Source: Auriscalpium vulgare (Eukaryota > Basidiomycota > Agaricomycetes > Russulales > Auriscalpiaceae). From it: a stretch of 64,000 nt of DNA. Position 1 is the stretch's first letter; the number at the start of each line of letters is the position of its first letter. Below, one piece after another: positions 25,170-50,700 of this stretch. A program made the position numbers and the translations under genes. The notes beneath the pieces are model-generated. The model did no database searches, had not been told where the DNA came from, and was given only the letters and a program-made list of their open reading frames with translations. The stretch covers positions 2,170,001-2,234,000 of the forward strand of contig JAHBBC010000002.1 of assembly GCA_019915015.1 (NCBI GenBank), read 5' to 3'.

Positions 25170-25300
25170 GACTGCAACATGAGCGAAAGCAAAGGGGAAG
25201 GGATGACATGTGATGACATAATTGTGGCAAACAATTGCAAACAACGGCAAACACCAAGGTGAAAGTTTCTAGGCGCCTCCCCTTGAACTGAACCACCACC

Positions 25301-28300
25301 ATGGGACATCCTCTGCAGCTCTTGCGCGACACACACTTATTCATTACACTGCATTCATGTCAAAGGACAATAGCTAATGAGCACAGTAAAGTCAAAGAAC
25401 TTATATGGCAAGGGCCGATACACAAAGTGCTGAGCTGCGCAATCATAAGCATTGTTCTGTTTTATCTGTTGAACTATGCCACAAAATGCAAACTTTTCTT
25501 ACACGGAACTGACATCCTGGAGGAAACAAAACAGACTCTAATTGGCGGTGGAAGAAAGAAAAAGCCATTATGGTTGCTGAGCGAGCTTGTCCAATATCAA
25601 GTCGTCGCTTCAACCAAAGACTTTCATCAGCTTTCTCAGTTTGAGTTCGGTGGCCACGGTCCACAGGTTGCCTTGAAGATTGCAGAGAATCATGAAGATG
25701 ATGTTCAGTGGATACTGTGTCAGATGCCATTATCAGAGTTGACTCGACTGCACAAGCTTGACCTAATTGAGATATGCGCCATGCATAATTTGAGCATTAA
25801 ATGGAATGACAAGACAAATAAAATATATGATATGATGGAGGGTCATATGCTACATGCTGATATGTGTACTGCTTGTGCGGACACATCTACCCTTTTCAAA
25901 TTCAGCGGAGTTGATAAACCCAAGGTGAAGAGGACAAAAACAGCTAAACAGTTGCAGGTCCAGCCAGCCCCTATTGCAGTCTTTCCACCAAAGCCTCCCT
26001 CAGCTTCTCTACTCCACAAAATAGTAACAAATTATTGCAATGCTATTGATAAAGAAAATTTATTGGAGGAAGGATGTGCGGTGTGTGGCACATTGACCAC
26101 TTCAAAAACGATGATTCCCCTGGACGAAGCAGATTTTGAACGTGACCTACTTGTAAATAACAATGGTCTGTACCCTGTGACCCGGATCGAACGCAAGTCA
26201 GTTGATGACCCTATTCTGTTTGAAGAAGGTCCAATTCTGGACAAGGCATGCTCAAAGGTCTGCAAACCATGCTTGGATATTCTGGAAAAGGGAAAGATTC
26301 CATCTCAGGCTTTAGCAAATGGGAATTGGATTGGGGATGTGCCCACACAATTGCAAGGTTTGTCATTTGCAGAGAAGATGCTTATCGCCAGGGTATGTCG
26401 CAATGGATGTGTGATCAAAGTACAATCCTCTGGTCAATATAAAATGGTTGCAAATGCAGTAATGTATGCGATGCCTATGCCGCGGATATACAGTGTTCTA
26501 CCACCTCGAGCAGAAGAATTAGACGATGTGATAGCATTTGTATATATTGGACCGACTCGTCCTACAATACGAGAACATCGGAGAACCCCGTTTCTTGTGC
26601 GTAGAAATAAAGTGGCCATTGCCCTCGAATGGCTCAAAGTCAACCATGCAGACTATGCAGACCTTACCATCTCCTATGACAATCTTGCGACCTACTCTGA
26701 AGATGAACCCCCAGTTATAATTGATTACCGTATACCTCCATCAGAGAAAGACTCTGAAGACAAGGCGGTAAACAAGTCTTCTGAAGATGAAGAAGGTACA
26801 GCGGAGGGGGAATGCCCTTTCATTATGCATACCTTAACAGGTGCTGAGCTTGAGAAGAAGTCTGGTACACAGTTAAAAGCCCTTGCACTTCAGTATATAA
26901 ACTCAAAAGATGGATATGCACTTGGCCTAGGTCACAATGATACACCAGAGAGCACATATAACAATCCTCAGCTATATCCCCAAGCCTTTCCTTGGCTTTT
27001 CCCTTATGGGCTTGGTGGTATTGGAAATGAGAATGGGTACTCAAAAATCAGTGATAGTGCCCGAAAATGTACATTGTTGATGTATCACGACAAGTGCTTT
27101 CAATTGGAACCTCTGTTCCCACTTATAGCATTTAATCACGAACAAATAAAACGAAGCAATACTGGGGGGTATTTGCTCACTCAGAAAGCGTCCTTTCCAG
27201 ATATTGCTAGGCGATTACTCAATGTGAATGAAGTTGTGATGAATGATATGATCCAGAGGATGGTAGATGGTGAATTTGAAACTGCTAATGGAGAGGCAGA
27301 AAAAGAGTGCTTTGCAATTATCAACGACTTGGACCATGTCGCTCAGCATGTTCAAGGCTCACGAACAAACAATAAATATAAGCGTAATGAGCTTTGGGCT
27401 CTCATGAGCTATATTGGGGCTCCAACCTGGTTTATTACGTTTGCACCAACAGATTCTAAACATCCGATTGCACTATATTTTGCTGACCAGGACATACACA
27501 TTTATCCCAAGGTATATACCGCTAGTGAACGATATCGCTTGATTGCAAACAATCCTGTGTCTGGTGCGCGCTTCTTCAAATTCATGGTGGAGACATTTAT
27601 CAAGGTTGTACTTGGGGTAGGTGCAGACCATGATGGGTTGTTTGGTAAAACAGCTGCCTACTATGGTACTGTGGAACAACAGGGGAGATTGACTTTGCAC
27701 TTACATATGCTTCTATGGATACAAAACGCATTAACACCGCAGGAGGTAAGGGATCGAATTGTAGCAGGTGATTCTGAATTTCAAAGACAATTGGTAGAAT
27801 ATCTAGGAGGCTCACATCAAGGCCAATTCATTAATGGAACTCTGAATGATGTCCACAGTCAAATTCAAGACAACTTGGAAAGAGGTGATAGTGGTTTGGA
27901 TCCCACTTGTACCTTGCCAGAGCATCCACCCAAGATGTGCTCTAACCATGTGACACTTCAAGATGATGAATGTACATCTTGCTCTGAAAGTAAATCATGG
28001 TGGGCACGCATGTGGGAGACAGCAGATGAACTGATATTTCGCTCTAATCGTCATAGATGTCATGCAGGTTGCACTAACAAAAAGTATTCCTCATGCAAAT
28101 CACGTTTTCCTCGTGAAGTACATGCTGAGACCTCAGTGGACATGGGTACAGGTGCAATCGAATTGAAACATGGTGAGGCCTGGCTAAACACATTCAACCC
28201 TACATTGACTTACCTCATTAGGTGCAACTCGGATGTTGCCAGTCTTCTATCTGGAACTGCTATTAAATCTATTATAGCATATGTGACTGACTATATAACC

Positions 28301-28384
28301 AAGACACCTTTAAAGACTCATGTCATGTTAGAGGCTATCAAGTCAGTCTTCAATCGCAACTCTGAGTTTCTCAGCGGAACTGCA
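25301..28384 (+). pseudogene. Helitron Rep-helicase, segment 1: N-terminal and rolling-circle Rep domain
   Basis: The ATG at 25,301 opens 1,028 uninterrupted codons up to the KDZ insertion site. Helitron-like N-terminal sequence (GYALGLGHNDTPESTYNNPQ, FPWLFPYGLGG) precedes the replication-initiator nuclease core. That core has the HUH metal-binding motif in LTLHLHMLLW (His800, His802) and the catalytic tyrosine pair in AYVTDYITK (Tyr994, Tyr998). These nick and join DNA during rolling-circle transposition. Cysteine pairs near residues 190 and 260 (CTACAD, CAVCGTL) suggest zinc binding. The natural frame continues at 41,130. As the DNA stands it reads two KDZ codons and then stops at 28,391-28,393, so no helicase is attached. 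The coding text is AT-richer than that of the inserted KDZ genes. Confidence 0.85.
28377..28384. repeat. Target-site duplication, left copy (GAACTGCA) of the KDZ element
   Basis: GAACTGCA here is repeated exactly at 41,122-41,129 at the other end of the 12.7-kb insertion. Neighbouring bases differ on both sides, so the duplication is exactly 8 bp. Confidence 0.9.
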
Positions 28385-28439
28385 GGGCCCTAGCAGTAGA
28401 TAAAATAACTATACGCCTGGTAGACCAGCGAAATGGAAG

Positions 28440-30060
28440 TGTTATATGTACCTGATTGTCCCACTTTACTACCTCCCTATACTTCCAGGCAACCGTAGTA
28501 ATTACTTACCCTACATTTTCACTTCCCACAAGCACCGGTAGTACTTCTGTATTAATCACTTGGTGCTGCTAGGGCGTAGTAATCACTTCGGGCATTTGGG
28601 TAAGGTGGTGGGATACACCAAAGTAAATACTTCCCCTCGTACGGCTGCCCAGATTGCCTAGTGAAAACTTCATCGGATATGTATGGCTGGTCCTAGTTAC
28701 TCCGATGTCCCGGTACGGCTGAAGTATTCACTTCCCCCATATATTTCGGTGATTTGGCTACATTAATTGGGGCACAGTAGTTACTCTGCTGTACCCGTAC
28801 GGAGGAAGTATTCACTTTGCTCCAAGGGATTTGGCTGGATTAATTGGGGCGCGCAGTAATTACTACAATGATGTACCCGTACGGACGAAGTATTCACTTT
28901 GCTCCAAGGAATTTGGCTGGATTAATTGGGGCGCGCAGTAATTACTACGATGATGTACCCGTACGGATGAAGTATTCACTTTGCTCCAGACTTGACTGGA
29001 TTAATCGGGGCGCAGTAGTTACGCTGATGTACCGTACGGGTAAAGTATTCACTTCCCTCCAGGGGATTTGGCTGTATTAACCGGGGCGCAGTAGTCACTC
29101 GAATATACCAGTACGGCTGAAGTATTCACTTCCCCCATATATTTCGGTGATTTGGCTACATTAATTGGGGCGCAGTAGTTACTCTGCTGTACCCGTACGG
29201 AGGAAGTATTCACTCTGCTCCAAGAGATTTGGCTGGATTAATTGGGGCGCGCAGTAATTACTACGATGATGTACCCGTACGGATGAAGTATTCACTTTGC
29301 TCCAGACTTGACTGGATTAATCGGGGCGCAGTAGTTACGCTGATGTACCGTACGGGTGAAGTATTCACTTCCCTCCAGGGGATTTGGCTGTATTAACCGG
29401 GGCGCAGTAGTTACTCGAATATACCAGTACGGCTGAAGTATTCACTTCCCCCATATGTTTCGGTGATTTGGCTACATTAATTGGGGCGCAGTAGTTACTC
29501 TGCTGTACCCGTACGGAGGAAGTATTCACTCTGCTCCAAGAGATTTGGCTGGATTAATTGGGGCGCGCAGTAATTACTACGATGATGTACCCGTACGGAT
29601 GAAGTATTCACTTTGCTCCAGACTTGACTGGATTAATCGGGGCGCAGTAGTTACGCTGATGTACCGTATGGGTGAAGTATTCACTTCCCTCCAAGGAATT
29701 TGGCTGTATTAACCGGGGCGCAGTAGTTACTCGAATATACCGGTACGGCTGAAGTATTCACTTCGGTCCAAATATTTTTGGCTAGATTTATCGGTTTATT
29801 GGGGCGGTAGTTACTCTGCTGTACCCGTACGGACGAGGTATTCACTTTTCTCCAAGGGATTTGGCTGGATTAATTGGGGCGCGCAGTAATTACTACAGTG
29901 ATGTACCGGTACGGGTGAAGTATTCACTTTGCTTCAAGGGATTTGGCTGATCTATCAGGGCGCAGTAGTTACTTCACTGTACCGGTACAGACACTTCCCT
30001 CCAAATATTTGGGGATTTGACTGGATTAATCGGGGCGTAGTAATCACTTCTGCGTACCAG
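28440..30060. repeat. Left subterminal repeat array of the KDZ element
   Basis: Units of about 80 bp contain GTACGG(A/C/G)(T/G)GAAGTATTCACTT, then a purine-rich stretch and ATTAATTGGGGCGC(G)CAGTA. A 316-bp higher-order period is seen (GTACGGCTGAAGTATTCACT at 29,111 and 29,427; a third near 29,743). The core GAAGTATTCACTT is the reverse complement of AAGTGAATACTTC, the motif repeated at the other end. Such arrays in large DNA transposons are usually transposase-binding sites; that role is inferred here. Confidence 0.8.
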
Positions 30061-30444
30061 TCCCAAATATCCTGCACTTCTGCTAATGTACATAGTGGTA
30101 GCGTTGCTCAAAGCGTACCGTAATATTCCCGAGGACATCGGACCATCTCTCATACCGAATACAACTTCCGAGAGGCACAGTGTGATGTGAATCGCTAAGT
30201 CGCAACCCCGAAGTTGTGCCGGATACGGCGAGACTCCAGGGCAAACTCCCAGTGACGGACAACCCTTCATTCTCACGAGTAATGCTCTGCAAACGGACAT
30301 ATATTCGTGTATGTATAAGTGCGGCAGATGTATAGCAAAGACGCCGTAGCGAGAAGGTGAAGGAATGGTATGGAGTCGCGACAGGACAAAGACGGCGTGT
30401 GTTGAGCACAAAGACGGCATGTGTTGAACACCACCATCCAAGAA
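30061..30444. other. 3' flank of the 809-aa gene, no gene seen
   Basis: The sequence is unique, between the subterminal array and the stop codon of the minus-strand gene. It contains a short direct repeat (AAGACGGC(A/G)TGTGTTGA near 30,390 and 30,411). No coding frame is supported. Confidence 0.5.
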
Positions 30445-33195
30445 TCAATTGAGGGTCGTGCAGTCGTGCGGTGTTGAACGCTTTAAGTGAGAGGCTAAGA
30501 GAAAAGATTGAGAGTTACTTGCGCGTCTTCCTCCTGAGAACAGTCGTAAGCGGCGGACGGGATCATACACGAGTGCTTCCACGCACCGTTTCCTAGGAGA
30601 GGCACTGTCCGCGACGACCGGCGTATCCTCCTCGGCGCCGCGCTTCCTGTCAGTGCTCTTCGCGCTCTGAAGGTGCATGAGCATCTGCTCCGACACCCAG
30701 GTAGTGTCTTCCAGCGCTGACTCCCACTCGCGCTTCTCCTGGGCAGTCTTCGTTGCGCCAAACCACCAGCTGAGGGTGATGAGCACGATGACGAAGCCGC
30801 TGCGTCCGCCTTTCATACAATCCGCCCACGTCTCCGACAGCGCGGGCTCGCCTCGCGTCAAGGGCCACCCGTCACCGCGCCACTCAGGCTGGAGGACAGC
30901 CCACCAGGTGCGCCAGCTGGACGCAAAGTCCTCAACATCATCGATGTCAGGGACCTTGGAGATGTCGCGTCGGGTGAGCCAGCGAGAGACCTGGGAGGGG
31001 CGATTCTTCGCTGCAAGCTGGAATTGTTTGCCCTGGATCGTGGTCAGCAGTCGACTTGTCATTCAAAAGATTACATGCGCACCTTCCCCGACGGGTACCC
31101 AAGTTCCTCCTCGATGGCGGCCCACATCCAAACGAGCAAGCGCCAGGCGTCATCGTCGATCACATCCACCAGGTGCCCGTGCTCGCTCACGAGCCATTTC
31201 GGCCACTCCGCCTTGACTTCCCGCCCAACTGCGATCTTGGATTTCGGCTTGGACCTTGTCCTGGTCGCAGGCGTGTTGATCTGCTCTGATAATGGCCCAC
31301 TTGTGCGAGGAGAGAGCGATGTCATGCGATCTGATAACGGGAGCTGCATGCTATCGGTTTGTGCATCGTCTGCAGTGTCGACGGCAGCAGGGGAGGGTGG
31401 ATCCTGGGTCGACACAAGTGGGATCGTGGTGGCCGTCGCCAGCGATGAGTGGGGGAGGACTTCCGCATTAGCGGACTGCCTTTCTTGGTCATCCTTGTTG
31501 TCGCCGCCCAGGTCTTGCTCGTCCGAGTCCATGTCGCGTATCCCCTTCTCATTCCTGTTCGGACATCAGTTATCTTTTGCAAGAGGACGGGCAAGCGGTG
31601 TACGCACGAAGATAGCGATCTGATCCTCTCTGAATGACGAGGCGGCCCATTAGCAAGCGCCGCAAGCTTTGCACGCTGAGCATCTTTCTCCGACTCCTTC
31701 TTATCCGCCTCGCTGAAAAACGGCACGTCCAAGCCACACTCCTTCAACAACGCCTTGTTCCGCGCGATGTTGTCGAGACGTTCCTGCTCATATGCCGTGA
31801 TGCCATGCTGAATGAGGGGAAGCGTGGGAGCGACCTCGTCGTCTTCATCAGCCTCAAAGTCCTCTATCTCCTCGTCTTCTTCCTCCGTAATCTCGTCGTC
31901 CCCTTTGACGCGCTTCTTCCTGGTCTTTCTGGTCTTCTTTGGTGGGCGGGTGGGCGCAGCAGAGTCGGAGCTGACGTGGGTGTCGGCGGGCGAATGTATG
32001 TCCAAGGCAACCGTTCCTTTGGCTCGCGCTGACGCCACTTCCGACGATTCCTGTGCAGTGGCGACATCCGATGATGCAGGCTCGGCGTTGCCGGAGGCCT
32101 GTGACGAGGAAGAGGTGCTGCTGGAGCCTGGGTGTGACACGGCACTAGCGCTGCCGCCAGAGCCCGCCGCGGAAGACGCTGGGGTACCAGGTCAGCACAC
32201 GTCAACCAGTGTATTGAGGACTGCTCACCAAAGGCGACCCGCAGGAAGTTACGGAAGGGCTGCTCGACCTTCTCCTTGAAGTCCGGATACATAGTAGCAA
32301 AGGTGCGCCCGTCATCTAGACTCGTATGGACGCTACAACGTAAGGTTAGTTCCAACCGCTCTTCTCGATAGTGGATCATACTGACGCATATGAGATGATT
32401 TTCCCGCCGTCCTCCGGTGATGGACCTCCAAGCAATATGGTCGCCATCCAGTTCGTCTGGTCGCGGATCTCCGCGAGAGCGAGCGTGGCTGTCTGCGGCA
32501 GCATCTCGATATTGCTATTTAGGACGACGAAGCGGTAAGCATGTGCCTTTTCGGAAAAGAAGGGTGTGGACTCACGCTTGGTAGTCAGGAAGCGAGTCGT
32601 CGCTACCGTCATCGCTGGCGGCACCAGCCCCAAGCGACTTGCCGCTGCGAGCCGCGTTGACCACGGCCTTCACATCCTCCTCCTCGGCGTCGAAGAGCTC
32701 GCGGCACTTCTGGTTGCGGAAGACCACCTCAGCCATCGCCTCCTCGCCCTCGGGGAGCTTGCGCAAGTATTCGTCATACGCCTCCTCAACGTCGGCCTTC
32801 AGACGCGTCCAGAACATTTGCTGATATAACTGATGCGCGGGCTTCTTGCGTGGCGCCTTCCCCGATAGGTTCAGGATGCGGCGGCGCCCGCCAGCGCGGC
32901 TGCCACCAACAGCATCACGAGAATGGTTGTTAAACCATTGCTTCAGGCGCTATAATGATACAAGTGAGCTATTATCCGAGTATGTGAAAAGTAACCAGCT
33001 CACCTTTCGCAAAGTAGGCTCGCCTTTGGGAGCGGCCGCCGTCCTATGGTCCTCGGTCTCTGGCCACCGCATGAGCCACTGGGAGAAGATCTCGGGCCAG
33101 AAGTCTGCAACCGCAAGACATCCCTTTGCCTGCGCGTCCCTGTACAGAGCAAGCTGACTCCTCAAGAAGACGTTCTGTTCTGGAGTCGCCCACAT
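30445..33195 (-). CDS. KDZ-borne accessory protein of unknown function, 809 aa, seven exons
   Basis: Exons in transcription order 33195-33004, 32949-32576, 32514-32386, 32332-32229, 32178-31608, 31554-31083 and 31032-30445 total 2,430 nt in frame; introns are GT-AG, 50-61 nt. The protein starts MWATPEQNVFLRSQLALYRD. The N-terminal 270 residues look folded, with several Trp/Phe-rich helices (DFWPEIFSQWLMRWPE). Residues about 270-390 are Ser/Ala-rich, then a basic KKTRKTRKKRVKG that may be a nuclear signal, then an acidic stretch. A second Trp-rich region (WPKWLVSEHGHLVDVIDDDAW, WRTWWAVLQPEW) fills about residues 560-730. No enzymatic motif is recognised. It is divergently transcribed from the hybrid-binding gene at 33,514, sharing a 318-bp promoter region. 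Carriage by the transposon suggests a role in transposition or silencing escape; this is inference. Confidence 0.7.
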
Positions 33196-33513
33196 GTTGC
33201 TGGGGGCGCGGGAGCAAGAAGAGGGTATCGTGCCGTGGGAGGCGGGAAGCGCCGAGGGTTCGCATTTTTTACTTTGCCATCAGGCCTTATATCTGTCTGT
33301 CGACGCGACTAATTTTACTGGACTCCCTAGACTTATTTTACTTTGCCCCAGGGTTGCTGTCGGAGCTTTACTGACGTCCGCTCAACCCATAAGTGGAAAC
33401 GATCGGACTGTAAAACAGGATCATAAGGTCCGCGCGATCTTTATCTTCTTTCCTTCACGCCATCTCAAACTCCCCTCCTTTGACCCTCATCAAACTCCCC
33501 CCAACGACTCACG
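33196..33513. promoter_or_regulatory. 318-bp divergent promoter region inside the KDZ element
   Basis: It separates the starts of the 809-aa gene (minus) and the 247-aa gene (plus). It contains T-rich stretches (near 33,266 and 33,310) and a C/T-rich run before the plus-strand ATG (CAAACTCCCCCCAACGACTCACG). No certain TATA box. Confidence 0.45.
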
Positions 33514-34413
33514 ATGACCCAGCTTCCTGCTGAAGCTGCGGTACCTCTCGCAGCCGGTGTTGGTGAGTCTGCGATCAGCAATCGCACCGCCTGTCCTTAT
33601 TCAACGGTATCATCAGACGCCCCTCGCCTGCCGGGGTACACGGAGACCTTCATCCCCGGTGTATACGTCTACTATGTGCTTGTGGACACGAGGTACCGCG
33701 GCATCTACACGGACTGGTACGCTCACCTATCCTTGAAGCGCCATACCAACTGACAGCTCTCGCAGGACGGTCATCGGGCCTGTCGCTCGACAGGTCAATG
33801 CCTTCACCCGCAAGTGCACCTCCTTCTCCGAAGCGCGCAATGCCTTGAGCAACCACGATATTGCAATGGCCATCCTGGCCAACGACATGGCGAACATGGC
33901 CGTCGACAGCGCTGCCGCCGAAGGCTCTCAGCAGCAGCCGGTTGAACACGGCGACAACACGCCTCTGACTCCGGGCTTGGCCGAGCCTGCCCCCATCATC
34001 GTGCCCGACGATGCGTCTGATCAGTCTGATGGCCACTCGTCCGAGTCGGGGGCCGACGATGAGGACGAGCTCACGGAGTTGATTCCCACCGCAGCAGAGA
34101 TCGGTGAGAAAAATACAAGCGTACTATCGCACCTCCCTGATCATTTCCCCAGCGCAAGGCTATTCCGAGGAGCGAGGCAGCCGTCCGGGGGGCGGGTGGC
34201 CATACTTGGCTGTAGCACGCGGCCGCAGGCGCGGAATCTTTCCGAACGGGTACGTGTTTATATTGATTGATTTATTGTATGGTCGTCTTATGTGCACCTC
34301 TCAACAGTCCCGCGGCTCAGGCTCTGATCACTGGGTATCCTGGGGCTTCGTCGTTGGGCTTTCGCTCGGTCGGCGAGTGCTATGCGTGGCTGAACCCGAA
34401 CCCGCAAGCATAG
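33514..34413 (+). CDS. Double RNase H1 N-terminal (viroplasmin-type) hybrid-binding domain protein, 247 aa
   Basis: Exons 33514-33716, 33766-34103, 34153-34249 and 34308-34413 give 744 nt in frame. Two copies of the small RNA/DNA-hybrid-binding fold of RNase H1 and caulimovirus viroplasmin (Cauli_VI type) are visible. The first, about residues 48-95, has VYVYYVLVDTRYRGIYTDW, a conserved Gln-Val-Asn and a Phe-Ser-Glu-Ala end. The second, about residues 195-245, has YLAVARGRRRGIFPNG, then ITGYPGASSLGFRSVGECYA. They are joined by an acidic Ser/Asp/Glu linker. No RNase H catalytic domain is present, so it probably binds nucleic acid without cutting it. Carried by the KDZ element between the accessory gene and the transposase, it may bind R-loops or transposition intermediates; that is inference. 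Confidence 0.7.
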
Positions 34414-34888
34414 ACTAGTTGTCTTGACCGATTAAATACAAAGCAATTGTGTCGTACGATAGTCCGTAGATGTCGTCGTCTCCGTATATGAAAACCTTGT
34501 TGTCTCTGCATATGAAAAGCTTTGTGTGAATTGTCGTGCCAAGAGAAGGAAACGAAGGGAAAGTGAGAGATACTGCAACAGCACATGTCTCAACCATCTC
34601 GTACGAGCGATACCAATTTCATGTTTGCAATTTCTAGCCTGAAAAAATATGTATCGGTATCTACAGGGATGCCCGTATGCGCTATATGTCAAATTTCAGA
34701 GAAGCTATCGGTGCTTGAGGTAAAGCACACAGAACGGACTGACGACTGAAGCATCCCTTGGGAAATACTGCGGCGACGCGGCTGTCCTCTTTGTGCCCTA
34801 GCTCGCTCTCTTCCTTGATTGCTATACTCATTGTCCAGCCTCACTTTCCACCCTATCCATCTGGCAGAGCCGTCTTGTCAGCGCCAAG
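34414..34888. other. 475-bp intergenic stretch within the KDZ element
   Basis: No coding frame is supported. It should contain the polyadenylation region of the 247-aa gene and the promoter of the 191-aa gene. Short Tyr/Asp-like repeats (GTCGTCTCCGTATATGAAAA and GTTGTCTCTGCATATGAAAA near 34,470-34,520) are the only structure noted. Confidence 0.45.
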
Positions 34889-35651
34889 ATGACGGCGAAC
34901 ACTCACGTCTCGACGACCGTTAACAGGCGTCAGCGAGACTATCAACGGTACGCCGCTCAACGTGTGTCTCGGATATCGCTGACATGTTTATTCATGACAC
35001 CAGGCATCGCAGCAACCGGCTGGAGTATCAGAAGAGCTACAACAGCGTCAAGCGTGCTAGTAGGCGAAAGGTCAGCAAGGAGGAGAGAAGTCTGGCGGAG
35101 CAATTGAAGAAGGTAGCGCGACACTTTGAACTACCTGCGTACGCCCTCCGTCACTCATTTTCTCATTGCTCACTTACTGATGCGTGTCATGGCCTGGTAA
35201 TGAAGGCCCTACAGGAGTGACATTGCTAGTACGACAAAGGACGAGGACCCCCGGCGTACACCACTAATGCGCCAGCTTGAAGACAAAATTTGGAGCGACT
35301 GGACAGAGCATCGTGACAAGTTGAGCGCGGTCTACCCTGATGACTGGGTTGCTCGTTACACCGCCAACCTCCGCGTTGCGATTCAAGAGCAACTAGATGC
35401 TGCCCGCGCGCCGTTGCTGGCCGAAGACGAGGAGAAGATCCATGCACATCGCAGGTTCATCGCGGGCCTCCATCAAGAGATTGAGGTCATACAGCATGGG
35501 CAACAGGTGTATGACGCTACGCTGTATGATCGGGCTTTCGTGTTTGCTGGTCGAAGGTTCGTGTATCACTATCGCCATGATCACTCGTTGCTGACTGGCC
35601 TGAGATTTCAGTGTGCGCAAAGCCTACTTCAAGCGCATCTACGGATTCTGA
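34889..35651 (+). CDS. KDZ-borne small basic/helical protein, 191 aa, four exons
   Basis: Exons 34889-34947, 35004-35138, 35215-35556 and 35612-35651 total 576 nt in frame with introns of 55-76 nt. The first 70 residues are basic (NRRQRDYQRHRSNRLEYQKS, VKRASRRKVSKEERSL) and may bind DNA. The rest is predicted helical and charged (LEDKIWSDWTEHRDKLSAVY; EDEEKIHAHRRFIAGLHQEI). No named domain is recognised. It lies 152 bp upstream of the transposase gene on the same strand and inside the same element, so a DNA-binding or regulatory partner of the transposase is a reasonable but unproven guess. Confidence 0.65.
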
Positions 35652-35803
35652 AGTCTACCATCACATTGTACTACTGTTTATCACTTATGTTGGTTGTTCT
35701 GCAACACCGGAGTAAAATAGATATCGGCCGTATGTGACATAGGCGCCTGTGTTGTGCTGAATCCCATCACTGTTCAGGCGCTAGGCGCTTCTCTCCGCTC
35801 ACC

Positions 35804-38800
35804 ATGGGCCGCGGCAACCGCAAGCGTCGTATTGCGGTCCAACGCATGGGTGACAACGACAGCGGACCGTCTCAGACGTCACGACACGTTGACATGTCCG
35901 TCGGCCCTGCCCGGCAGAAGCGGAAAGTCAAGCATACTACATCGCACTATCTCGACAACATCACCGACGCCCCACCAGCTGATGCAGCGGCCGACGCGGA
36001 CGCTACACCATTCATCGAGGACGATCAACCCCAGCTGAACAGCGACATCCCCGTTGAGGTGCCTCAGCTTCGCCGCCGCCGCCGCCACCGACGCAAAGAT
36101 GTATGATTTCCCGCCTTCTGTTCACCTATATTTTGCTGACGTCTCGCTTCAATCTAGGGCTCAGGAAAGCCTGTTAAAGACTGGTTACCGTTCCGTGAGC
36201 AATTCCTCGACGAGATTATTCGTTTGGAGGGCCTCGGGGATGACGCGGAGCTTCCTCTGTGCGGCGCCTGTGGGGTCGAGGTCGGAGAGCTGCGATGTAC
36301 GGACTGCATGGTCGGCATGCGTTTCTGCGCTTCATGTGCGGTTGCAGCCCATCAAAAGCTGCCCTTCCATCGTCTCCAGGTGCGTGCGCTTCACCGCTTG
36401 CATCGATTCCGCTTACGCGTGCAAGCAGAGATGGAACGGCTCATTTCACGAAAGATTCACACTCTGTCAAGCAGGCCTTCGCATACAGCTCGGCCATGAC
36501 GGCCAGAGTTGTCCCAATCCCATAATCAAGCCTTCACCCATGACTATCATCGACATCAGCGGTGTCCACAACGTCCATATCGACTTCTGCGCGTGTGGTG
36601 TCGTTGGCTCGTCTCTTCAAACCACTCAGCTGCTTCGGTTTTCACTATGGCCGGCAACTGTCCATCGACCTCAGTCCGCTATCACCATCCGCACGCTCAA
36701 ACTGTTTCACGCATTGAACCTCCAGAGCAAGTTGAACGCGTACGACTTCTGGTGTACTCTGGTGCGCATCACAGATGGAATCGGGACGCGGCCACCCAAG
36801 GTGTGTTGTCCCGCCGTCACAGCTTTGAATATAGCTTACAGTCAATATATAGTACCGGTACAAAGAATTTATCCGCGCTATCCGACTCTTCCGTCACATC
36901 CGCGCACTCAAGCGGACCGGGCGCTCCCATATTCCTTCCGGCATCGAGAGCACCAAGCAGGGGGGCTTCGCAGTGCAGTGCCCGCTCTGCCCGCAGCCAG
37001 GCATGAACATGCCGGAAGGGTGGGAAGACGCACCTGAGGAAGAAAGGTGAGTCATCGTGCGCCGTCAGCCTGTGCGCCATGCTGACGACGACTTTGTGTT
37101 AGGTGGAAACACGCGATGTTCTTAGCCGTGGATGCCAACTTTAAACTGAAACTCAAGAATCGCGGTTTGGTTGACACCGAGCTCGCCGACGGCTTGGCAT
37201 ATTTCGTCAAGAAAGATGTGTATGATGCCCATTGCGAGGCGTACAAGAACGAGCCTGAGGTAAGCCCCATGCCCTCTGACTACAATGTCCTTCTGACGTG
37301 CGATAGCCCAAATACTGCGACTCTAATCACGCCGCTGTCGACCATGCCAACGTCCCTGCCCAGCGGCGCTTCTCTATCAACGGCGTCGGCGCCGTAATTT
37401 GCTCTCGGCACTGTTTCTACCTCCGACATGGGGTCGGCGATCTGCGCTTCGGTGAACGGTAAGTTCCTAATTACAGAGACAAGGTTTTCGTGGCTCTAAC
37501 TGTCTGTTGTGTAGGTACGCTTCCATGGACTATATGCTACTATCCGCTCTCGCGCTCTCTGCACCCGATATCAAGACCCTCTACATTTCCTACGATATCG
37601 CTTGCTCATTCTCAAAGAACTTCGCGACTCGGATGCTCAGGTACCCCGAGCATCTCCGCATAAATCCGGATCTCCTTCGACTCAAGTGGGCCGTGCCCAA
37701 GTTTCATCTTATCGCCCATGGCCCGAAGTGCCAGACAAAGTACTCGTACAACAATATGCACGGCGTCGGGCGCACGCATGGCGAAGGCATCGAGGGCGGC
37801 TGGGCTGAAGTAAACGGCTTTGCTCTCAGCACTCGGGAAATGACGGGTCCAGCGCGACAAGAGAACCTAGACGACGCGCTCGGTGCCATCAATTGGCGCA
37901 AGACCATCACCATCCGTAAGTCCGAACCATATCATTTTCCCATCAGAATATCTGATCATTGATTGTTGTCGGCCGCAGCTCAGTCCATCAAGAGGAGCCT
38001 GAAGATCGCAACCGAGGCGCTCGAAATACAGCTCCATGCATTTGAAGAGGCCTGCGAGAACGTCCCAGTGGAGACGCAGCAAGAGTGGAGTGCTATGATG
38101 CAGGCGTACGAGAAGGACAAAACGGCACCCAACCCGTACGAAGAGCCCGTCGTCTGTAAGCTGTCGCATCTCAATCACGCTTGGGGATCTCCGCTGATGA
38201 TCTACAATGTTTCAGTCACGTCCCTGGTTGATGTGCGCCTCGAATTGGCCGAGGAAGAGGCGAGTGAAGCTGCGCTGGGCCAGCTGTCCCCGCATGAGAC
38301 GACCGCAAGCATGTTCCTAACAATCGGCTTCGAGTTAGAGGAGCAACAGTGCGTCCGAGTCGACATCGAGTATCATCCACACCGTGCTGACATCCTTATT
38401 GTAGGCGTCTTGTGCGAGAGAAGGCAAAGATGATAGCCGCAACCGCCCGCATCACGACGGAGGGCGGCTCATCGAGATTCAAAAGCCCGAAGGACAAGCG
38501 CAATAGCTCCGACAAGGTTGCGCTCAAGGAGAAGCAGACCGTTTTGAGGCACAGAATAGCGTCATGGCGCGTCATCCAACAACTGTACATTCCGTGCGTC
38601 AACCAGCTTCTTCCTTCCCCATCAAGCACGGATGTGTCAGTGCCGGGGCCAGGCAATGGCGCAGCAACCGACCACCCTGAAGACGAGACACTATACCTAC
38701 CCTCGCAGCTGCCACCCGAGCTTCGCGAGACGGGGTGTACCGCGGGTCTTGTTGCAAAGGAGCTCAGGCTGCGACTTGGGCAAGCCCAAGACGCACTCTA

Positions 38801-39847
38801 TCAGGTGCGTGGTGCTCATCATGCGTCGGAATGAGATTTGATAGATGCTCAAACAGGTTCGTCGGTCTCTACGGATACGGCACACGCACGTACATTTCAA
38901 GCGCGTACACATCGCCGGCCCAGGACAGAAATCCAACACGCGTGCGCGGACCTTCATCACGCGTTTGATGGAGAAGGCTATGCGCCACGCCCAGCGTTAC
39001 CGCGCCGCGTACGCTGCGCTGCTCGTTCTGGACCCCAACGGTACTTGGCAGCACAAACTCAAGCCCCTCCTCGACTCTCATCTCGTCGGTCCACGGCAGG
39101 CGCCTGATCAACTTGGCAAGGGCCACTTCAAACCGAGCTGGATTTGGTTGAATCTCAAGCCAGATGTCCGCGAGCATTCTGACATGGATGAGGATGCCAC
39201 GGAGGCGGAGGTCACGGACAGTACGTATGCATCTGATGACGAAGCTTGACATGCTGACGGGCTCTTCAGGTGTTCGAGTGGACTGGGTTACCGCCAAGGC
39301 TCGAGTCGAACGATGGCAGGAAGAAATCGCGCATCTGCAAGAGGAGATGTTGCGCGCGGTCCGCTTCATGTCCACCCGGGCGGCGCAGTGGAGGGCGTTG
39401 GTCGATCAACGTTCGGGTGTCCGTCCAGATGTGGAATCTGGACTTCGCGCATATGCATACCGCCAGGCTGGCCAATTTGACGAGCTGGCGCGCTCCTTTG
39501 TGACCATTTGGAAGCCCGCACTGGTTCGTTTCTCCCTTCCTGACCTCTGGCCCGACATGCCTATGCAGGTCATTCCGCAAGCGGGCGTAACACCTCGGCC
39601 GCAAGTAGACGGAGGTGATGTAGTGGACAGTTCGGGTGACGAGTCGGATGCCTCGGACTCGTCTGCAAGCGACAGCTCTGTCGTTGGCGACGATGTGCTG
39701 GGCACTGGGGACGATGTGCCAGGCACTGGGGACGATGTGCCAGGCACTGGGGACGATGTGCCAGGCACTGGGGACGATGTGCTTGTCTCTGGGGATCTCC
39801 CTCCGGCTACGAGCGATGTCTATGATGTTATCGACGATGTCCTGTAG
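35804..39847 (+). CDS. KDZ transposase with CxC2-like cysteine cluster, 1,152 aa, 12 exons, intact
   Basis: Exons 35804-36100, 36158-36379, 36429-36800, 36853-37046, 37103-37259, 37307-37458, 37515-37915, 37979-38155, 38216-38348, 38405-38804, 38845-39220 and 39270-39847 sum to 3,459 nt, all phases consistent. A basic, disordered N-terminus (RRRRRHRRKD) is followed by a CxC2-type zinc cluster at about residues 133-160 (LCGACGVEVGELRCTDCMVG, RFCASC). After this comes the conserved LWPATV/LQSKLNAYDFW region. The RNase H-like catalytic core has Asp372 (AVDANFKL), Asp492 (SYDIACSF), PKFHLIAHGPKCQ and the acidic Glu555/Glu558 in GRTHGEGIEGGWAEVN, then TREMTGPARQENLDDA. The C-terminus is a coiled-coil-like and acidic tail with five GTGDDVP-type repeats. 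It would cut and rejoin the element's ends in the nucleus. Every family-defining residue I know is present, so the enzyme may be active. Confidence 0.9.
39697..39787 (+). repeat. 21-bp in-frame minisatellite in the transposase tail
   Basis: GGCACTGGGGACGATGTGCC recurs every 21 bp, about four and a half times, encoding GTGDDVP units. Copies are almost identical, so repeat number probably varies between alleles. Confidence 0.85.
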
Positions 39848-39959
39848 TAGTAGTAGTACCTTTGTGCTGAATAATACGAAGTAGAGGGAGTCGAGACCAT
39901 GACGGCGATCACACATTAAATTCGGCAAGTTGTCATACCCGTGCACGACTTGTACGAGC

Positions 39960-41090
39960 GAGAGTACACCGGCCCGGACAAGCGGCGCAAATAACTACTA
40001 TTACACAATCAAAGTAAATTGAGGCCTCTGTTGTACGTCTGAAGTCAGTACTGGCCGCAGTAAACACTGCGCGACTCGCTTGGGGCCGGAGGTAAATACT
40101 ACACCGCGCATTAATTAGCGACCTAAGTATAGTACTACCGGGCACAGCGCAAAAAATAAATACTACCGCAGTCAAAGTAAATTGAAGACTCTGTTGTACG
40201 TGTGAAGTCCGTACTGGCCGCAGTAAACACTGCGCGACTCGTTTGAGGCCGGACGTAAATACTAAGCGCGGGCGCGACTCGCTTGGGGCCGGAGGTAAAT
40301 ACTACGGCGCGCATTAATTAGCAACCTAAGTATAGTACTACCGGGCACGGCGCAAAAAATAAATACTACCGCACAGTCAAAGTAAATACTACCGCACAGT
40401 CAAAGTAAATTGAAGACTACGTGTGAAGTCCGTACTGGCCGCAGTAAACACTGCGCGACTCGTTTGAGGCCGGACGTAAATACTAAGCGCGGGCACACGA
40501 AGTGAATACTAGCGGTGCTGCGAAAAAAAAGAGCTACCTGGCCCGACGTAAACAGTAGCGTAAAGTAGATACTAGCAGTGAAGTAAATAGTGCGAGGGGT
40601 GAAGTAAATACTAGCGGTGAAGTGGTAACTAGTAGCATTGTTATAGCAGGCCCGAAGTAAATACTTGCGGCTCGCTTGAAGGCCTGAAGTGAACACTGCG
40701 GGCGGTAAATTATTGCATGCGCGAAGTAAATACTACATCCAGTAGGTCCCTGAATTATTAGCAGTGCATCATCGTAGGGTCGAAGTAAATACTAGCATTT
40801 TTAACTGCCGGCTGCATTGCTGCAACTCCGACGTAAATACTACCCGTTGTATATAGGTACCGTCGGAGGGCTGAATTAAAACTACATCGGTCCAGTGCTG
40901 TAAGAGCGAAGTAAGTACTAAGCCAGGTATAGGCCTAAAGTGAATACTGCACGGAGTAAAAACTACCGTTGGTAGATACTTCCACAAGCACTACCATAGG
41001 AAAGTAGGCCAAAGTAATTACTACTCGCTGTTCACTCAAGTGACTCTGCATCAACTAGTTATATTACTACCGTATCCCTAGTTTACCAGA
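39960..41090. repeat. Right subterminal repeat array of the KDZ element
   Basis: The motif AAGT(A/G)AATACT(A/T)(C/G)C recurs more than fifteen times, often preceded by CG or GGCC. Longer units of 110-170 bp (landmarks GCGCATTAATTAGC, CTAAGTATAGTACTACCGGG, TGTGAAGTCCGTACTGGCCG) occur around 40,000, 40,150 and 40,330. The motif is the reverse complement of the left-end GAAGTATTCACTT, so the two arrays face each other. ATTAATT with GGCGC/GCGC is also shared by both ends. Confidence 0.8.
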
Positions 41091-41121
41091 CTTTAGTACT
41101 ACTATATCTACCGACAGAGTT

Positions 41122-41129
41122 GAACTGCA
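41122..41129. repeat. Target-site duplication, right copy (GAACTGCA) of the KDZ element
   Basis: It is an exact match to 28,377-28,384. Immediately after it the Helitron frame resumes with ACG CAA ATG. Confidence 0.9.
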
Positions 41130-41887
41130 ACGCAAATGGAAAAGGCACGCAAGGTCATGGTTCAAGTGGTAAACTCTATGACTACCAAGATGGAAATAGG
41201 TGGCCCAATGGCATCTCTCTATGTGTTAGGTCATCCTGACCATTACACTAGTCATAAATTTAAGACATTTTATTGGCGGCCATTTATTAATGAAGTGAAA
41301 AGATATTGGAACTCCCTGGAGCCTGAAGAGGAGAATGGAGATCGTGTTGTTATCAACAAAGTAAAAGGAAAAATTGTTGCATTGACTACTGTAGATGACT
41401 TTACCAAGCGCCCTGTGGACTATGAAGCTATGTCTCTCTATGATTGGTGTCGCTTTGCTACCAAGTTCAAGATTCCCAAAAACGGAAAGGCAAATGAACA
41501 AGAAGTAGCTGAGAATGCTGATCTTGGCAATCAATATGACATGATGGAGATAGACCGGGACCTAGATAAAAAAATACAGGTTGGTGGTGGCGGTGATGAT
41601 GTGCATATGGTGATAGAGATTGAAAGTGACACAGAAAAGACAATCGTTGATAGTGATGACGAGATGGATATTGAGGATGATGATATGAGCACAATTGTGA
41701 ATAATTCTGATGATGAAGACTATGAAATGAGCATGAATAGCACAGAGGCAGACGATAGTTCATCTGACTATGTACAGCCCAAGGCAAAGAAAGGCACTAA
41801 ACGAAAGGGTCAAAAAGACAAGAAGCCAAAAGAGTACCCCCATTTTATAGCGGGACATCCTCAATGCGAAACACATACCATACGACT
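41130..41887 (+). pseudogene. Helitron Rep-helicase, segment 2 (between Rep and helicase domains)
   Basis: This is the continuation of the Rep frame after the KDZ element. It contains the conserved block KARKVMVQVVNSMTTKMEIG, GPMASLYVLGHPDHYTSHKF and FYWRPF that follows the Rep tyrosines in Helitron proteins. An acidic linker follows, then HFIAGHPQCETHTIRL, which in other Helitrons runs directly into VPNFVGG at the helicase start. Here that transition is split by the Mutator-like element at codon CT|G. It is not a separate gene; an ATG at 41,136 is incidental. Confidence 0.85.
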
Positions 41888-43739
41888 AGACTCGTAACCA
41901 GCCGTACTGACGACGATGTTGAGATGGGGAGGAATCGTCGTCAGACGGACTGGCAGAATTGAGTTTGAAATCCTATGTAGCTCGCGTTACCGTAAAAGGA
42001 TACCCGGTCCGGGCGCGGGCCTGAGGTCCGCCTGGCCCGTCGCGACGCGTTTGCCTGCGCGACGCGTCTCTCCCGACTTTTTCTCCGTTCGCTACCACCA
42101 TGACAGCCCCCGCACCGTGTCTCTCAGCGCTTCTAGACCTTCCTGAAGCTCATAGAGCACGTATACAGGCTGTATATGACTTGCCAGACTCAGATTTATG
42201 GCAGTATGCAACACAACTCATAGGCTCTCGACTCGAGCCGCTCGACTCGTTCCTGCACACCCTGGCGCCGCGTCAGATCTGGCAAAAGCGCTTCGCGCGT
42301 GTCTGCTGCTATGGACTGTCACCAACGGAGAGAATGTTCCGCGACAAATGCAGCTCGAGAGTGTCATCCCGGTGTGCTCTCGCAGAGACAGTCTCGTCAA
42401 CGTCGGAACAGGATCGGGCAAGACCATCTGCATGGTCCTGGCAATTTTGCTTCAGATTGGCGCAACATGTCTCGTTATAAACCCTCTGCGCCGACTGCAG
42501 ATTAATCAGGTGCGTATCCGTGCCTCTTTCGGCCCCGCGGTCTAATTTCCACTCGACAGGTGGCCGAGTTTTCAGCGTACGGTATCCACGCCCAGTGCAT
42601 CAATGAGGATACGCCAGACGATCCCACACTATGGAAGGTACGTATAACGACGTTATCTATTGTACAAAGGCTCACCATAACGTAGAAAATCGAGGACGGC
42701 GCCTTTTCTGCGATCATCATCGCGCCCGAGTCCCTTGACAGGTTCCAGGGACACATGCCACGCTTCGTGTGTCTCCTCAAGGGCCCTAGCAGCCGGTTCT
42801 TTGTGCGGCGCATCAGGACTGTTTTCGTCGTCGAGGCGCATTTTATTCACTCGGCAGGCATCCCGCTGTACGGTTTACCGGCGCATCGCCCCGCCTGGGG
42901 CACGATCGCGAACCTGCGCATTCACCTCACAAAGGGCACACCAATCCAAGCCCTGTCCGGGACACTGCCTCCTCACATCCGCTCCCTTGTCGCCGGCATT
43001 GCGTGCGGGCTCTTCGAAAGTGGAGTTTGTTGTGTGCATTGCATGACCAGAGCTCAGAGAATCTTCGTCGATAGCAGCGGCCAGCGCAGGAAGATCCTCT
43101 GCGAAGTACTGAGCCCGACCGGGATCGAGAGATGTAGAGCGCAAACGACGTGCAGTAGAAATAGTGTCCGGAGTAATTGGGATCTTGAAGTCGAACGCGC
43201 GAGCACTGGCAGGAGTAGTATGGCCCGAGACAGGTGGGTGAGTCAAATGAGCGCGACTGAAGTCGGGAGTGCCAAAGAAGCTGGAGAGCGGTGAAGGAAA
43301 TGGGCTTGGGAGACCAGACAGAGGTGCAAAATAGTCGCGTGGTGTACTGGTGAGCTGTAGTGTTAACGGAAGGGGAGACAGAGATGGAAGTGTCGAGAAT
43401 GATGGTGCTGCCTCGAAGTCAATGAGAGCTCCATTGAACTGGCCTTTGGCGCGCTTTCTCGTGCGGGAAATGGTGCCCGACTCTTCATGGATGCGTCGTT
43501 TGGTGTTTAACGGGGTCTATTGAGACATTTGGGTATACAGTGAGGGGGTATATGCAGAGAGGTGTATGCTACGGGCAGCGACGCGACGTGTCTGCGGAGC
43601 GCGCGCAGCGGTCCGACCCCGGACCGGCTATCCTTTTACGGTAACTTGAGCTACATAGGATTTCAAACTCAATTCGACCGGTCTGTCTGGCGACAACACC
43701 CTCCCCATCTCGTTGTCGCCGACAGACGGTCACCGGTCT
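41888..43739. mobile_element. Mutator-like non-autonomous element, 1,852 bp, with captured helicase fragment
   Basis: ACCATACGACT occurs at 41,877-41,887 and again at 43,740-43,750, giving an 11-bp target duplication. Terminal inverted repeats of about 125 bp match with indels. They begin AGACTCGTAACC on the left and, reverse-complemented, AGACCGGTGACC on the right, and share a 27-bp identical core starting AATTGAGTTTGAAATCC, then TTACCGTAAAAGGATA. Long inverted ends with 9-11 bp duplications are typical of Mutator-like elements; a cargo of host-gene exons is typical of their Pack-MULE form. No transposase is encoded. Confidence 0.85.
42100..43020 (+). pseudogene. Captured fragment of a RecQ-like DNA helicase
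   Basis: The fragment begins near the ATG at 42,100 (LPEAHRARIQAVYDLPDSDL), then changes frame near 42,250. It continues as LAKALRACLLLWTVTNGENV, an ATP-binding Walker A (VGTGSGKT) near 42,410 and two exons (from about 42,560 and 42,686) separated by recognisable GT-AG introns. The last has the Walker B region as VVEAHFIHSAG, where a catalytic Asp would be expected (DEAH), and a motif III-like ALSGTLPPHI. It ends before the second helicase domain. The text matches the RecQ-like helicase family abundant in agaricomycetes. Retained introns mean DNA-level capture. The frame change, altered Walker B and missing C-terminal half make it non-functional as a helicase. Confidence 0.75.
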
Positions 43740-43750
43740 ACCATACGACT

Positions 43751-47411: not shown

Positions 47412-47640
47412 TGTAACGCGGGCGCGCAGAAGGCGCGTACGCGGGTGCACCGAGTTGTGGGTGATGTTATGACATGTTTGGATGCCCGTAGTAGCAGTAG
47501 CGCCTTCCCGTTATGGGAGGGCATCTTCTTCACTTGTACATCCATTCCACTACTACGGCATCCATCGAGTTCTCTCGAATAAACGTGGATTCCGTTCATT
47601 GCGAGTGAACTACAAGTCATCAAGATCACTATTTCTTACA
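47412..47640 (+). repeat. 5' LTR (229 bp)
   Basis: It starts TGTAACGCGGGCGCG and ends ATTTCTTACA. AATAAA lies at 47,578-47,583 and should serve as the poly(A) signal in the 3' copy. No obvious TATA box was found. Confidence 0.95.
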
Positions 47641-47653
47641 GTTTTTTGAACGC
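47641..47653 (+). other. Presumed primer region: GTTTTTTGAACGC directly after the LTR
   Basis: TTTTTTGAACGCC follows the 5' LTR both here and in the second element (57,873 onward), so it is conserved. It does not begin with TGG, so it does not fit a usual tRNA-primed binding site. Confidence 0.5.
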
Positions 47654-47713
47654 CTACGGTACGTTTATCGAAACAACTCGTCTTTATTGATCTCTGCCAT
47701 CCAGAACGATACG

Positions 47714-50700
47714 ATGGCACCGAGCCGCAATAAAGACCCCAAAGAGCCGCGCGTATCCCCCCGTCTCGGCGGGAACGCGAAGCAACCCAGTGGCTCTACT
47801 CCACCTGTACCCACGGATCAGGTCGGAACCCCCGTCGATGGGGAGACGCCACGTGTGCCCGCCAACGTCGCAGTGCTGAACAGCCCCAACGCGACGCCTG
47901 GCTCATCGGGCACACCACAGGACAGCGACCGGACCCCGGACACGAACACGAGCGCTGTCACCTCGCTCACAGAAATCGAGAACGCATTAGACGGCTCGGA
48001 TGACGAGAAGCAGACCCCGTCGTATGTCGACAAGGGCAAGGGGCGCGCGCCCCCAGCTATTGAGACAGAGTTAGTCGGCACCCAGATCATGGACGCTCGT
48101 CTGATCACGATGCTCGACGATCTGCAGATGCACGTGGCGGCTCACGCGTCCCAACTCGAGACGGCATCGGTCGTCGCAGAACAAGCCCGTCAGTCGGTAC
48201 AAGCAGCTACAGTAGCCCGTACCCAGATTGATGGAATAATAAAAGCAATACTCCACCAGTATGGACCGAGAGTCATCAAGCAGGAAGAAGTAGAGGTGGA
48301 TCTCAGCCAGCTACAGCCCGCCAACCCGATAGATATCGTGGTTACGCCACCCAGCGCATCTGACTCAGATAGTACGAGTCATTACGTTAGACTGGGGACA
48401 CGGACACCAGAAGAAGGGCGCCGTAACCTGGAAAAACATCGCGCGCGCATGTCTGATATGATTCAGAAGACCACCCCGTTGGGACGGTCAGACACGGAAG
48501 TGCGCACCGCGCAAGACCGCCTCGCCCCTGAAGAATCGGGACGAGCCAGTGAACGATTCGCGACGGCGTACCGTGAACCCACGCCGTCACCGGAGAAACG
48601 TGCACGACTGGCTGAGCCATACACGAGCGTATCGCCGTATAGTGTCGTGCCCGACAAACCCAGAGTGAAACCTATGCCTTCACAAACTACACCCAAGTCA
48701 GGGGTACTAGGCGTACTCGACCCAGTGGACCGCATACGGGAGATGGTCCTGTCTCGAGTTAGCGAGGCAGTCAGCCTAGGGTTCCAAATTAAAGGCTTGA
48801 AGTTTACCATGCCTGACTCCTACGGAGGGGTAGACGACCTCATTACCTTCGAGGTATGGTTAGGTGCGTTACTGCGCTGGCTCCGACTCAGCCAGGCTGT
48901 CGGCCCAGCGTACGACTCGCTACGACTTGACGCGCTGGGACAGTGCCTCACCGGGCGTGCTGCCAAGTGGTACAACGATGAGATTGAATCCCCATCGCGC
49001 GCACAGGTTGAATGGACATTTCTTGATGCTGTAATCGCCCTCTTCCGTCGATTTGTTGTCGGAAGGAGCGACCAAACGGCGCTAGAACACTTTATGTCCA
49101 CGCGATTCTCACGCAAAGGAGGTGTGGCCGAGTTCTATAATGAATTACGAACACGCTCTACGAGACTGGTGGAGCTCCCGAACGACTATACCTTCCGCAA
49201 GCTATTTGTTAGCGGACTGCCAGCAGACATCCTAGAGATAATGTATAAGCACAAGGGTGTAGTTGCAGAGGAGGGCACCACAACAGAGTTGCTCACCGCA
49301 GCGCTGGAAGCTGAAACTGGTTCCCGTGCCTATCGACAGATGATAGAGAGCCTGGGTCGTACCCGGTCCGCTGGCCCTAACAACTCCACACTGTCCGCCA
49401 CACTCAGTGCGACTGCGAAAGCCGATCGCACTGTCGAGGCTGAGTCCCGTTCGCCTCGCGGTGCTCCCACCTCTCCTAAACCAATGAGCCATGAGCTCTC
49501 CAAGGTGAGTACGAGTCGCGGTGAGAACACACGAGGACGGGGCCGAGGAGAGGGTAGAACTGGTCACCGCGGACGCGACCGATCGCAGACGCGCCCCAGG
49601 CCTGACAGAAAAACAGTCGTATGTTTTGCGTGTGGCGGCACGGGCCACTATGCTGGCGATGCCGAGTGCCCTAAGAACGGGCAACCACGAGTATACGCTG
49701 CGCGAGTGGTAGACGAGACGCCCGCCGATGCCGACGACGTCGAACCAGCAGACGATGAGCAATTGCCACGGGCAGAAGTCGAGGCAGATGCACTCACGTC
49801 AGACGATGACGATGACGGTGCACCGGGAGCACAGTACGAATCAGCTGAGGAATACGCTGAGCAGTACGAAGTGAGTGCGTCCGAGGATGAGGACGATATT
49901 GGCCCACCCATGAGGCTGGCCACTATGCGGATGGCCGCAATGCGGATACAGCCGCCATCTGATGAAGATGTGGAGAACATCATTGACGGGACGTCGCCTG
50001 ATAATTCGGGGACGACTTCACCCCTCACAGTAACAATTCCGGCAAACCCTGTCACCAACGGCAATGGAGGCGTCGACTCACCGATGGGATCGACCCCAGA
50101 AGCTGGATGGGACGGATCTGAACCTGTGCGACCCACATGGGGAGGCGGCGCGTTCACTGCATGGGGGACAGGACCGGCCATGGGGCCGGGGTCCGGATGG
50201 GGCACCGCCACTGAATGGCCGACCGAGCCACCAGTCGCGAGTGAACCACCGCAGATCGTCCAATATCCTGACGATGCACTGATCCCAATCCCCGCTCCCA
50301 ATGATGAGCCACAACAATACACTGTTGTGAACAGGGGGGAGGGAACGCGCGAGGACGAATTAGATAGCGCTTACCAGAGTGGCATCGATATTGGGATCCA
50401 AATGGCACAACGCGCCATCCACAGTGCCGCGTTGAACCATGAAGCGTTGGACCCCCGCATGCCCGGGCTCGAGCATGCAGAACGTGTACTCGATTGGCTT
50501 GCCGACCGTCCCTATCGTCGAACAAATCCCGTCGACGAGTTGTCACGTCGAGAACCGAATGCAGAGAACGAGGAACCGGACGATGACATACCGCCACTGG
50601 TGGACCCCACGGAGGAGAGGATCGCCCCAGACGACCACTCACCCGTGCGCACGTCAGCACCTCTATTGAGGGAGCGAATCGCCCGTGCACCAGCGTCAGC

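Follow-up and report, generated by a model that had tools for sequence, protein, structure and literature searches.

A complete four-gene KDZ transposon within a Helitron gene of Auriscalpium vulgare and the conserved gene set of its relatives

KDZ transposons are abundant in mushroom fungi, yet in the available parts of the literature their gene content is mostly told by way of the transposase and of TET/JBP genes. One question then is what a complete element of this kind contains, and whether the genes found beside its transposase belong to the element or merely travel with it. The window analysed here, a stretch of 64,000 nucleotides from contig JAHBBC010000002.1 of the basidiomycete A. vulgare (Russulales), holds a KDZ element lodged in a Helitron gene, and thus a locus at which the limits of the insertion can be read from the gene that it interrupts. 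That positions 28385-41122 constitute a complete KDZ transposon, apparently intact and with four genes, is well supported and confirms the original prediction: the transposase gene encodes both the KDZ and the CxC2 domain, a second copy exists, and Helitron paralogues provide the empty sites. The element measures 12,738 bp on the plus strand, and its termini, GGGCCCTAG...ACAGAGTTG, have homologous counterparts in the second copy.

Limits of the element and structure of its ends

The 5' part of the Helitron gene (25292-28384, plus strand), which encodes Helitron_like_N and DUF6570 domains, stops where the KDZ element begins, and the gene resumes on the same strand at 41130-41887, in frame with position 28384, ending at a second insertion; a domain search places a PIF1-type helicase further downstream. 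When the KDZ element and one duplication are deleted the Helitron frame becomes whole again, with a joint free of stop codons, as had been proposed, and five Helitron copies, 99% identical as protein, run through the same joint without a stop. Two Helitron paralogues checked as DNA (98-99% alike) are contiguous at this point, their target reading AACTGCG, as against AACTGCA on both sides of the element in the window.

The same Helitron carries a further insertion of 1851 bp (41888-43738), which holds a DEAD-box helicase-like piece and lies between two direct copies of the 12-bp sequence TACCATACGACT (41876-41887 and 43739-43750), its limits being set by the uninterrupted Helitron paralogues L059 and L060. 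Beyond it, a long open frame on the plus strand (47609-51337) with a retroviral-type aspartyl protease domain probably belongs to an LTR retrotransposon, as its gag-protease portion.

The exact right-hand limit depends on the length of the target-site duplication. The octamer GAACTGCA is found at both 28377-28384 and 41122-41129, and was originally read as an 8-bp duplication with the element ending at 41121. We compared 13 insertions, namely those of the window element, the second copy, C22:380185, C42:124608, three members of family F3, three of family F4 and the KDZ genes at C2:2948k, C22:439k and C25:193k, scoring the duplications between ends of the form G[A/G]GC... and ...GTTG. In 11 of the 13 the target is duplicated over 7 bp without a mismatch, in one the 7 bp agree at six bases and in one no duplication is present, both imperfect cases belonging to F4 (C2:2027257 with the 6/7 match, and the KDZ insertion at C2:2598126 with no matching duplication). 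A duplication of 8 bp was rejected after both registers had been tried, being perfect in only two of the 13 in the register first proposed and in five in the other. The target duplication is therefore 7 bp (AACTGCA at 28378-28384 and 41123-41129) and the eighth base of GAACTGCA is a chance match, so that the element ends with the G at 41122; the left boundary at 28385 stands as predicted, and the right one is displaced by a single base.

The ends themselves are imperfect inverted repeats, as the original prediction held: 28396-28517 aligns with 41001-41111 at a local score of 47, whereas 1000 shuffles averaged 19.9 and never exceeded 38. The termini of the window element and its relatives conform to G[A/G]GCC...GTTG. 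In addition to its imperfect terminal repeat, the left subterminal region (28385-30061) comprises 316-bp tandem repeats and an array of the motif GTRAATACT, which recurs in the right subterminal region (39989-41122) beside the imperfect inverted end. The left 2.1 kb contain 16 sites, 15 on the minus and one on the plus strand, and the right 1.3 kb contain 12, all on the plus strand; the 9.4-kb interior of the element and the remaining 51 kb of the window are free of the motif. The second copy (24 and 14 sites) and families F2 (35 and 25) and F3 (20 and 18) repeat this inverted arrangement, with minus-strand sites on the left and plus-strand sites on the right, while two further relatives, for which the left end alone was read at length, have 34 and 27 sites there. 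The more distant family F4 has a single GTRAATACT, its left end being rich in TACTAC instead. Folding of the left end gave no special structure.

The second copy lies at C22:604826-644056, an unrelated site with its own duplication, and both its ends are homologous to the base. It was the only match in DNA searches of the genome (51.6 Mb in 96 contigs) with the two ends of the window element, and between these ends it holds all four genes, here called A, B, C and D, at 75-81% likeness, so that the expectation of the same genes between the same ends elsewhere is borne out. The copy is broken at the match of 34310-34313, the start of the last exon of B, by a 26.5-kb insert (C22:611559-638101; L036-L038), in which direct repeats of 1.2 kb (99.8% identical) and additional repeats inside suggest nested LTR retrotransposons. 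Likewise, a 15-bp pattern representing the right terminus of close relatives, from which the window's own terminus differs slightly and which it does not match, occurs eight times in the genome (reversed control, none), and each of the eight follows a KDZ gene at a distance of 3.3-3.9 kb, with A, B and C preceding that gene. Stripped-down copies, with such ends and without the accessory genes, which the original prediction had set against its own reading, are absent among these eight occurrences and the DNA matches to the window's ends.

The four genes and the selection acting on them

Gene A occupies 30515-33195 on the minus strand (eight exons, 768 aa in the spliced model), followed on the plus strand by B at 33514-34413 (five exons, 227 aa), C at 34889-35651 (four exons in the spliced model, 191 aa, basic) and D at 35804-39847 (12 exons, the third starting at 36429). 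All four models have GT-AG introns, 25 in total, with exons that join in phase and no internal stop, in agreement with the structures first proposed; in the second copy GT..AG is kept at 24 of the 25, and at intron 2 of D too with its acceptor moved by 3 nt. The product of D is accordingly about 1148 aa long (1149 aa, or 1148 with the intron 2 acceptor favoured by the second copy). It matches the KDZ transposase family PF18758 over model positions 2-217 of 217 (E 5.2e-55, 186.9 bits, cut-off 26.6) and, N-terminal to this catalytic domain, the CxC2 family PF18803 (E 6.9e-35).

Protein B contains two stretches of PF01693, the RNase H1 N-terminal / Cauli_VI family (E 3e-9, 37.4 bits, cut-off 21), and so resembles the part of RNase H1 that binds RNA-DNA hybrids; a similar binding activity might be predicted for B, if only weakly, its closest hit among solved RNase H1 domains having an E of 0.34. 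Neither A nor C matches a Pfam family above cut-off, Myb/SANT included, and the same search returned no recognisable chromatin or methylation domain in either. The model of A aligns with an annotated A. vulgare protein at 63% identity over residues 1-762 (99% coverage), the C-terminal part of the annotated homologue differing from the model over one stretch; the predicted structure of this homologue has a mean pLDDT of 41 and is unusable. Gene C has three homologues in A. vulgare (57, 53 and 33% identity), and the predicted structure of a C homologue is all-helical (pLDDT 73), with no match in the PDB at an E of 0.001 or better. In wider protein searches with A and C, among the best 7,993 and 7,996 candidates by shared words, homologues came from A. 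vulgare only, one for A and three for C. Tet_JBP matches none of the four proteins, and none of its 17 matches in the genome falls within the element.

The dN/dS ratios between the window element and the second copy are highest for A (0.255) and lowest for D (0.120), with B (0.194) and C (0.190) in between, and no upper bootstrap limit exceeds 0.333. The aligned codons contain no in-frame stop, and the coding indels are multiples of three, save one of 4 nt that runs across the stop of D. All four genes, the accessory ones included, are thus under purifying selection.

Association of the accessory genes with KDZ loci

To what extent A, B and C accompany the transposase can be judged from the genome at large. 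A search for the KDZ family gave 168 matches; from the part of these that was listed, rows, one or a few per copy, were taken and merged into 108 loci, and the stretches within 20 kb of these make up 7.5% of the genome. Among the selected rows, 45 of 56 for A, 28 of 35 for B and 41 of 44 for C lie within this distance; the remaining three C rows each adjoin a match to A, and the 41 include four matches, close to KDZ loci of lower similarity, that are weak or in an odd position. We ranked 88 matches at 87 loci by their likeness to the D domain. Of the 42 D-like loci (120 bits or more), 38 have one or more of A, B and C within 15 kb upstream; the 45 lower loci, which were scored by coordinates with single queries that divergent forms of A-C could escape, have none. 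The corresponding Fisher value, 1.7e-19, is overstated, near-identical copies being non-independent. At the 42 D-like loci C is found on the same strand in 37 cases, A on the opposite strand in 26 and B in 22, with all three at only 19. As for the misses, A, B and C are present at C4:1160901 on close reading; C8:1495955 has none of them in the 4.7 kb upstream and a D that is without its first 224 residues; C2:1458269 has an A row 24 kb upstream, outside the limit; and C44:62640 is a partial domain.

Not only presence but also arrangement is conserved. Upstream of related KDZ genes the order and orientation of A-B-C are fixed, even where identity in the transposase domain falls to about 46-50%, typical offsets from the D domain being -7 to -5 kb for A, about -3.6 to -4 kb for B and about -2.3 kb for C. 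Divergence proceeds in parallel: in a set of 31 loci read by hand the identities of D correlate with those of C (rho 0.89 for 31 loci, 0.85 for 25 distinct value sets) and with those of A (0.91 for 20 loci, 0.90 for 16 distinct value sets), 11 loci having no A value, the A rows covering differing residues and one pairing on C8 being uncertain. A tree of the KDZ domain, for which 35 rows were reduced to 21 in-genome rows by dropping 14 as short or duplicate, several others looking badly framed, requires two changes of the A-B-C label, below all 500 shuffles. Because this tree is poorly resolved, the relatives of the window element are a similarity group, not a clade. To judge from the loci compared, A, B and C and the transposase have been passed on jointly in many related elements.

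Some further loci deserve mention. At C8:1401202-1406126 and C4:9752-15177 A, B and C stand in the usual order with no KDZ row within 20 kb, which suggests remnants or interrupted elements. In a KDZ copy outside the similarity group (L058, C1:2148001-2157000) PF01693 is matched some 4.1 kb upstream, in the same orientation, with neither A nor C and no match to the window's B, and at C18:906485 too, by coordinates, PF01693 lies beside a KDZ gene without A or C; the former copy implies that PF01693 is not unique to the module. Of 11 TET/JBP matches above cut-off, six (C8:1578966, C9:154498, C9:492869, C13:416026, C13:539088 and C14:947177) are within 6 kb, in fact 4-5 kb, of a KDZ copy. These copies belong to other groups: five of the six are 34% identical to D, and the sixth (C13:411399) is absent from the 88 D-domain matches. 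Another TET/JBP match, at C10:111107, is situated about 11.7 kb downstream of a D-like locus, past its expected right end.

Possible functions of the module and its place among known systems

We favour, with a probability of roughly 0.7, the reading of 28385-41122 as an autonomous KDZ-superfamily transposon that moves by cut-and-paste and encodes a conserved core of four proteins, and from co-inheritance and selection we infer a role for A, B and C in transposition or in regulating it. Under this reading D would make staggered cuts 7 bp apart, and the inverted GTRAATACT arrays would be candidate docking sites for its CxC2 region, for the basic and helical C, or for A. En/Spm (CACTA) elements combine a transposase with a separate DNA-binding partner and carry arrays of subterminal motifs, with which such docking might be compared. 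Protein B could bind an RNA-DNA hybrid or other structured nucleic acid, aiding either the assembly of the complex or escape from silencing, and A, B, C and D would together be the gene set of this KDZ lineage. A bolder version of the same idea, an obligate four-protein KDZ system of CxC2 transposase, hybrid-binding B, basic helical C and large divergent A operating on GTRAATACT arrays, widespread in mushroom fungi and in some cases, such as the Pleurotus helpo1.3, mistaken for Helitron capture, we regard as tentative and rather doubtful.

Capture by the Helitron, or an error of assembly, might also be put forward to explain the segment; for capture, a Pleurotus ostreatus Helitron described with a similar captured gene set provides a precedent (PMC4289320, as far as the available text goes). 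At this locus, however, the perfect flanking duplication, the eleven further insertions of related copies (ten with a 7/7 or 6/7 duplication), the Helitron paralogues uninterrupted at the joint and the second copy, with a separate duplication at an unrelated site, all point the other way, the last two ruling both readings out for practical purposes. It is also improbable that A, B and C were captured from the host and ride along without serving the element. Accessory genes can indeed form part of KDZ and other large elements (PMC12477816, in the part available), and the original prediction spoke of three further genes as cargo; three genes there are, the same in the second copy and in many relatives, but "cargo" hardly describes a set whose composition, order and strand are constant across KDZ loci down to the transposase-domain identity given above, in which A and C diverge in parallel with D, and whose C rows lie almost without exception near a KDZ locus (41 of 44) or next to A (the other three).

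The main alternative for the role of A, B and C is escape from silencing, that is, that they protect the element from the host or regulate its expression from outside the transposition complex. Purifying selection and co-inheritance are also compatible with silencing escape or regulation, a protective role has been proposed for the TET/JBP genes of other KDZ elements (PMC12730594, available portion), such genes adjoin KDZ copies of other groups in this same genome, and B, with a nucleic-acid-hybrid domain, would be suited to an RNA-based defence as its target. On the other hand, the Pfam search revealed no chromatin or methylation domain in A or C, and we consider this alternative possible, though appreciably less likely than the four-protein core that we favour. 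Whatever the division of labour, the conserved module, the defined ends, the 7-bp duplication and the candidate binding arrays are concrete parts for a transposition assay, and a domain of the hybrid-binding type is placed in a cut-and-paste DNA transposon.

How does the element compare with systems already described? The comparisons that follow refer to the accessible portions of the papers cited. Fungal KDZ elements often carry accessory genes (PMC12477816, citing Iyer et al. 2014), and KDZ target duplications are reported as 7 or 8 bp (PMC12730594); the window element shares the superfamily's features in its PF18758 match above cut-off, its CxC-type cluster and its duplication within this range. 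The duplication is of the Kyakuja length, 7 bp, and not the 8 bp reported for Zisupton, a KDZ superfamily member (Bohne et al. 2012, in PMC12730594). A close parallel is offered by the Kyakuja elements with TET/JBP from Agaricomycetes (Kojima 2025, PMC12730594), in which a KDZ transposase and an accessory gene lie between the ends, and two families of which have 7-bp duplications; these families, however, have CA..TG ends and no terminal inverted repeats, whereas the window element has G[A/G]GCC...GTTG ends with imperfect inverted repeats and, in place of TET/JBP, three other genes. KDZ1-KDZ3 of Cryptococcus neoformans are mobile elements of 9-11 kb that duplicate their target (8 bp for KDZ1, otherwise 4-8 bp), with long terminal inverted repeats (139-241 bp) and a CxC1 cluster, the protein domains named for them being those of the transposase (PMC12810828), and thus differ from the window element, with its imperfect repeats and CxC2. 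Intact KDZ transposons of Pleurotus ostreatus, by contrast, share the CxC2 region, located upstream (PMC7641404), and those of the Agaricomycete Marasmius oreades have terminal inverted repeat motifs (PMC8290104), as here. Among two-protein systems, Nuwa, of the Harbinger/Nuwa type, has a Myb/SANT partner (PMC12730594). Both this type and En/Spm employ other transposase families, and A and C are without a Myb/SANT match above cut-off.

A case apart is the long copy of helpo1.3 in Pleurotus ostreatus, where a segment of about 10.7 kb lies within a Helitron, inverted repeats flank capD and capF, capE is a PF01693 gene and capF is nuclease/transposase-like (PMC4289320). It was published as Helitron gene capture and said to occur only inside Helitrons, an argument against a multi-copy KDZ element there. 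Like the window element it combines a large segment inside a Helitron with a PF01693 gene and a transposase-like gene, and we note as a lead, by analogy, that it may be a KDZ insertion of the same kind, a simpler and testable alternative to capture. In the literature searched, as far as it was accessible, we found no description of a conserved A-B-C-D module, which may nonetheless have been published elsewhere. KDZ elements with accessory genes are already known; what appears new, in comparison with these sources, is the conserved A-B-C-D module itself.
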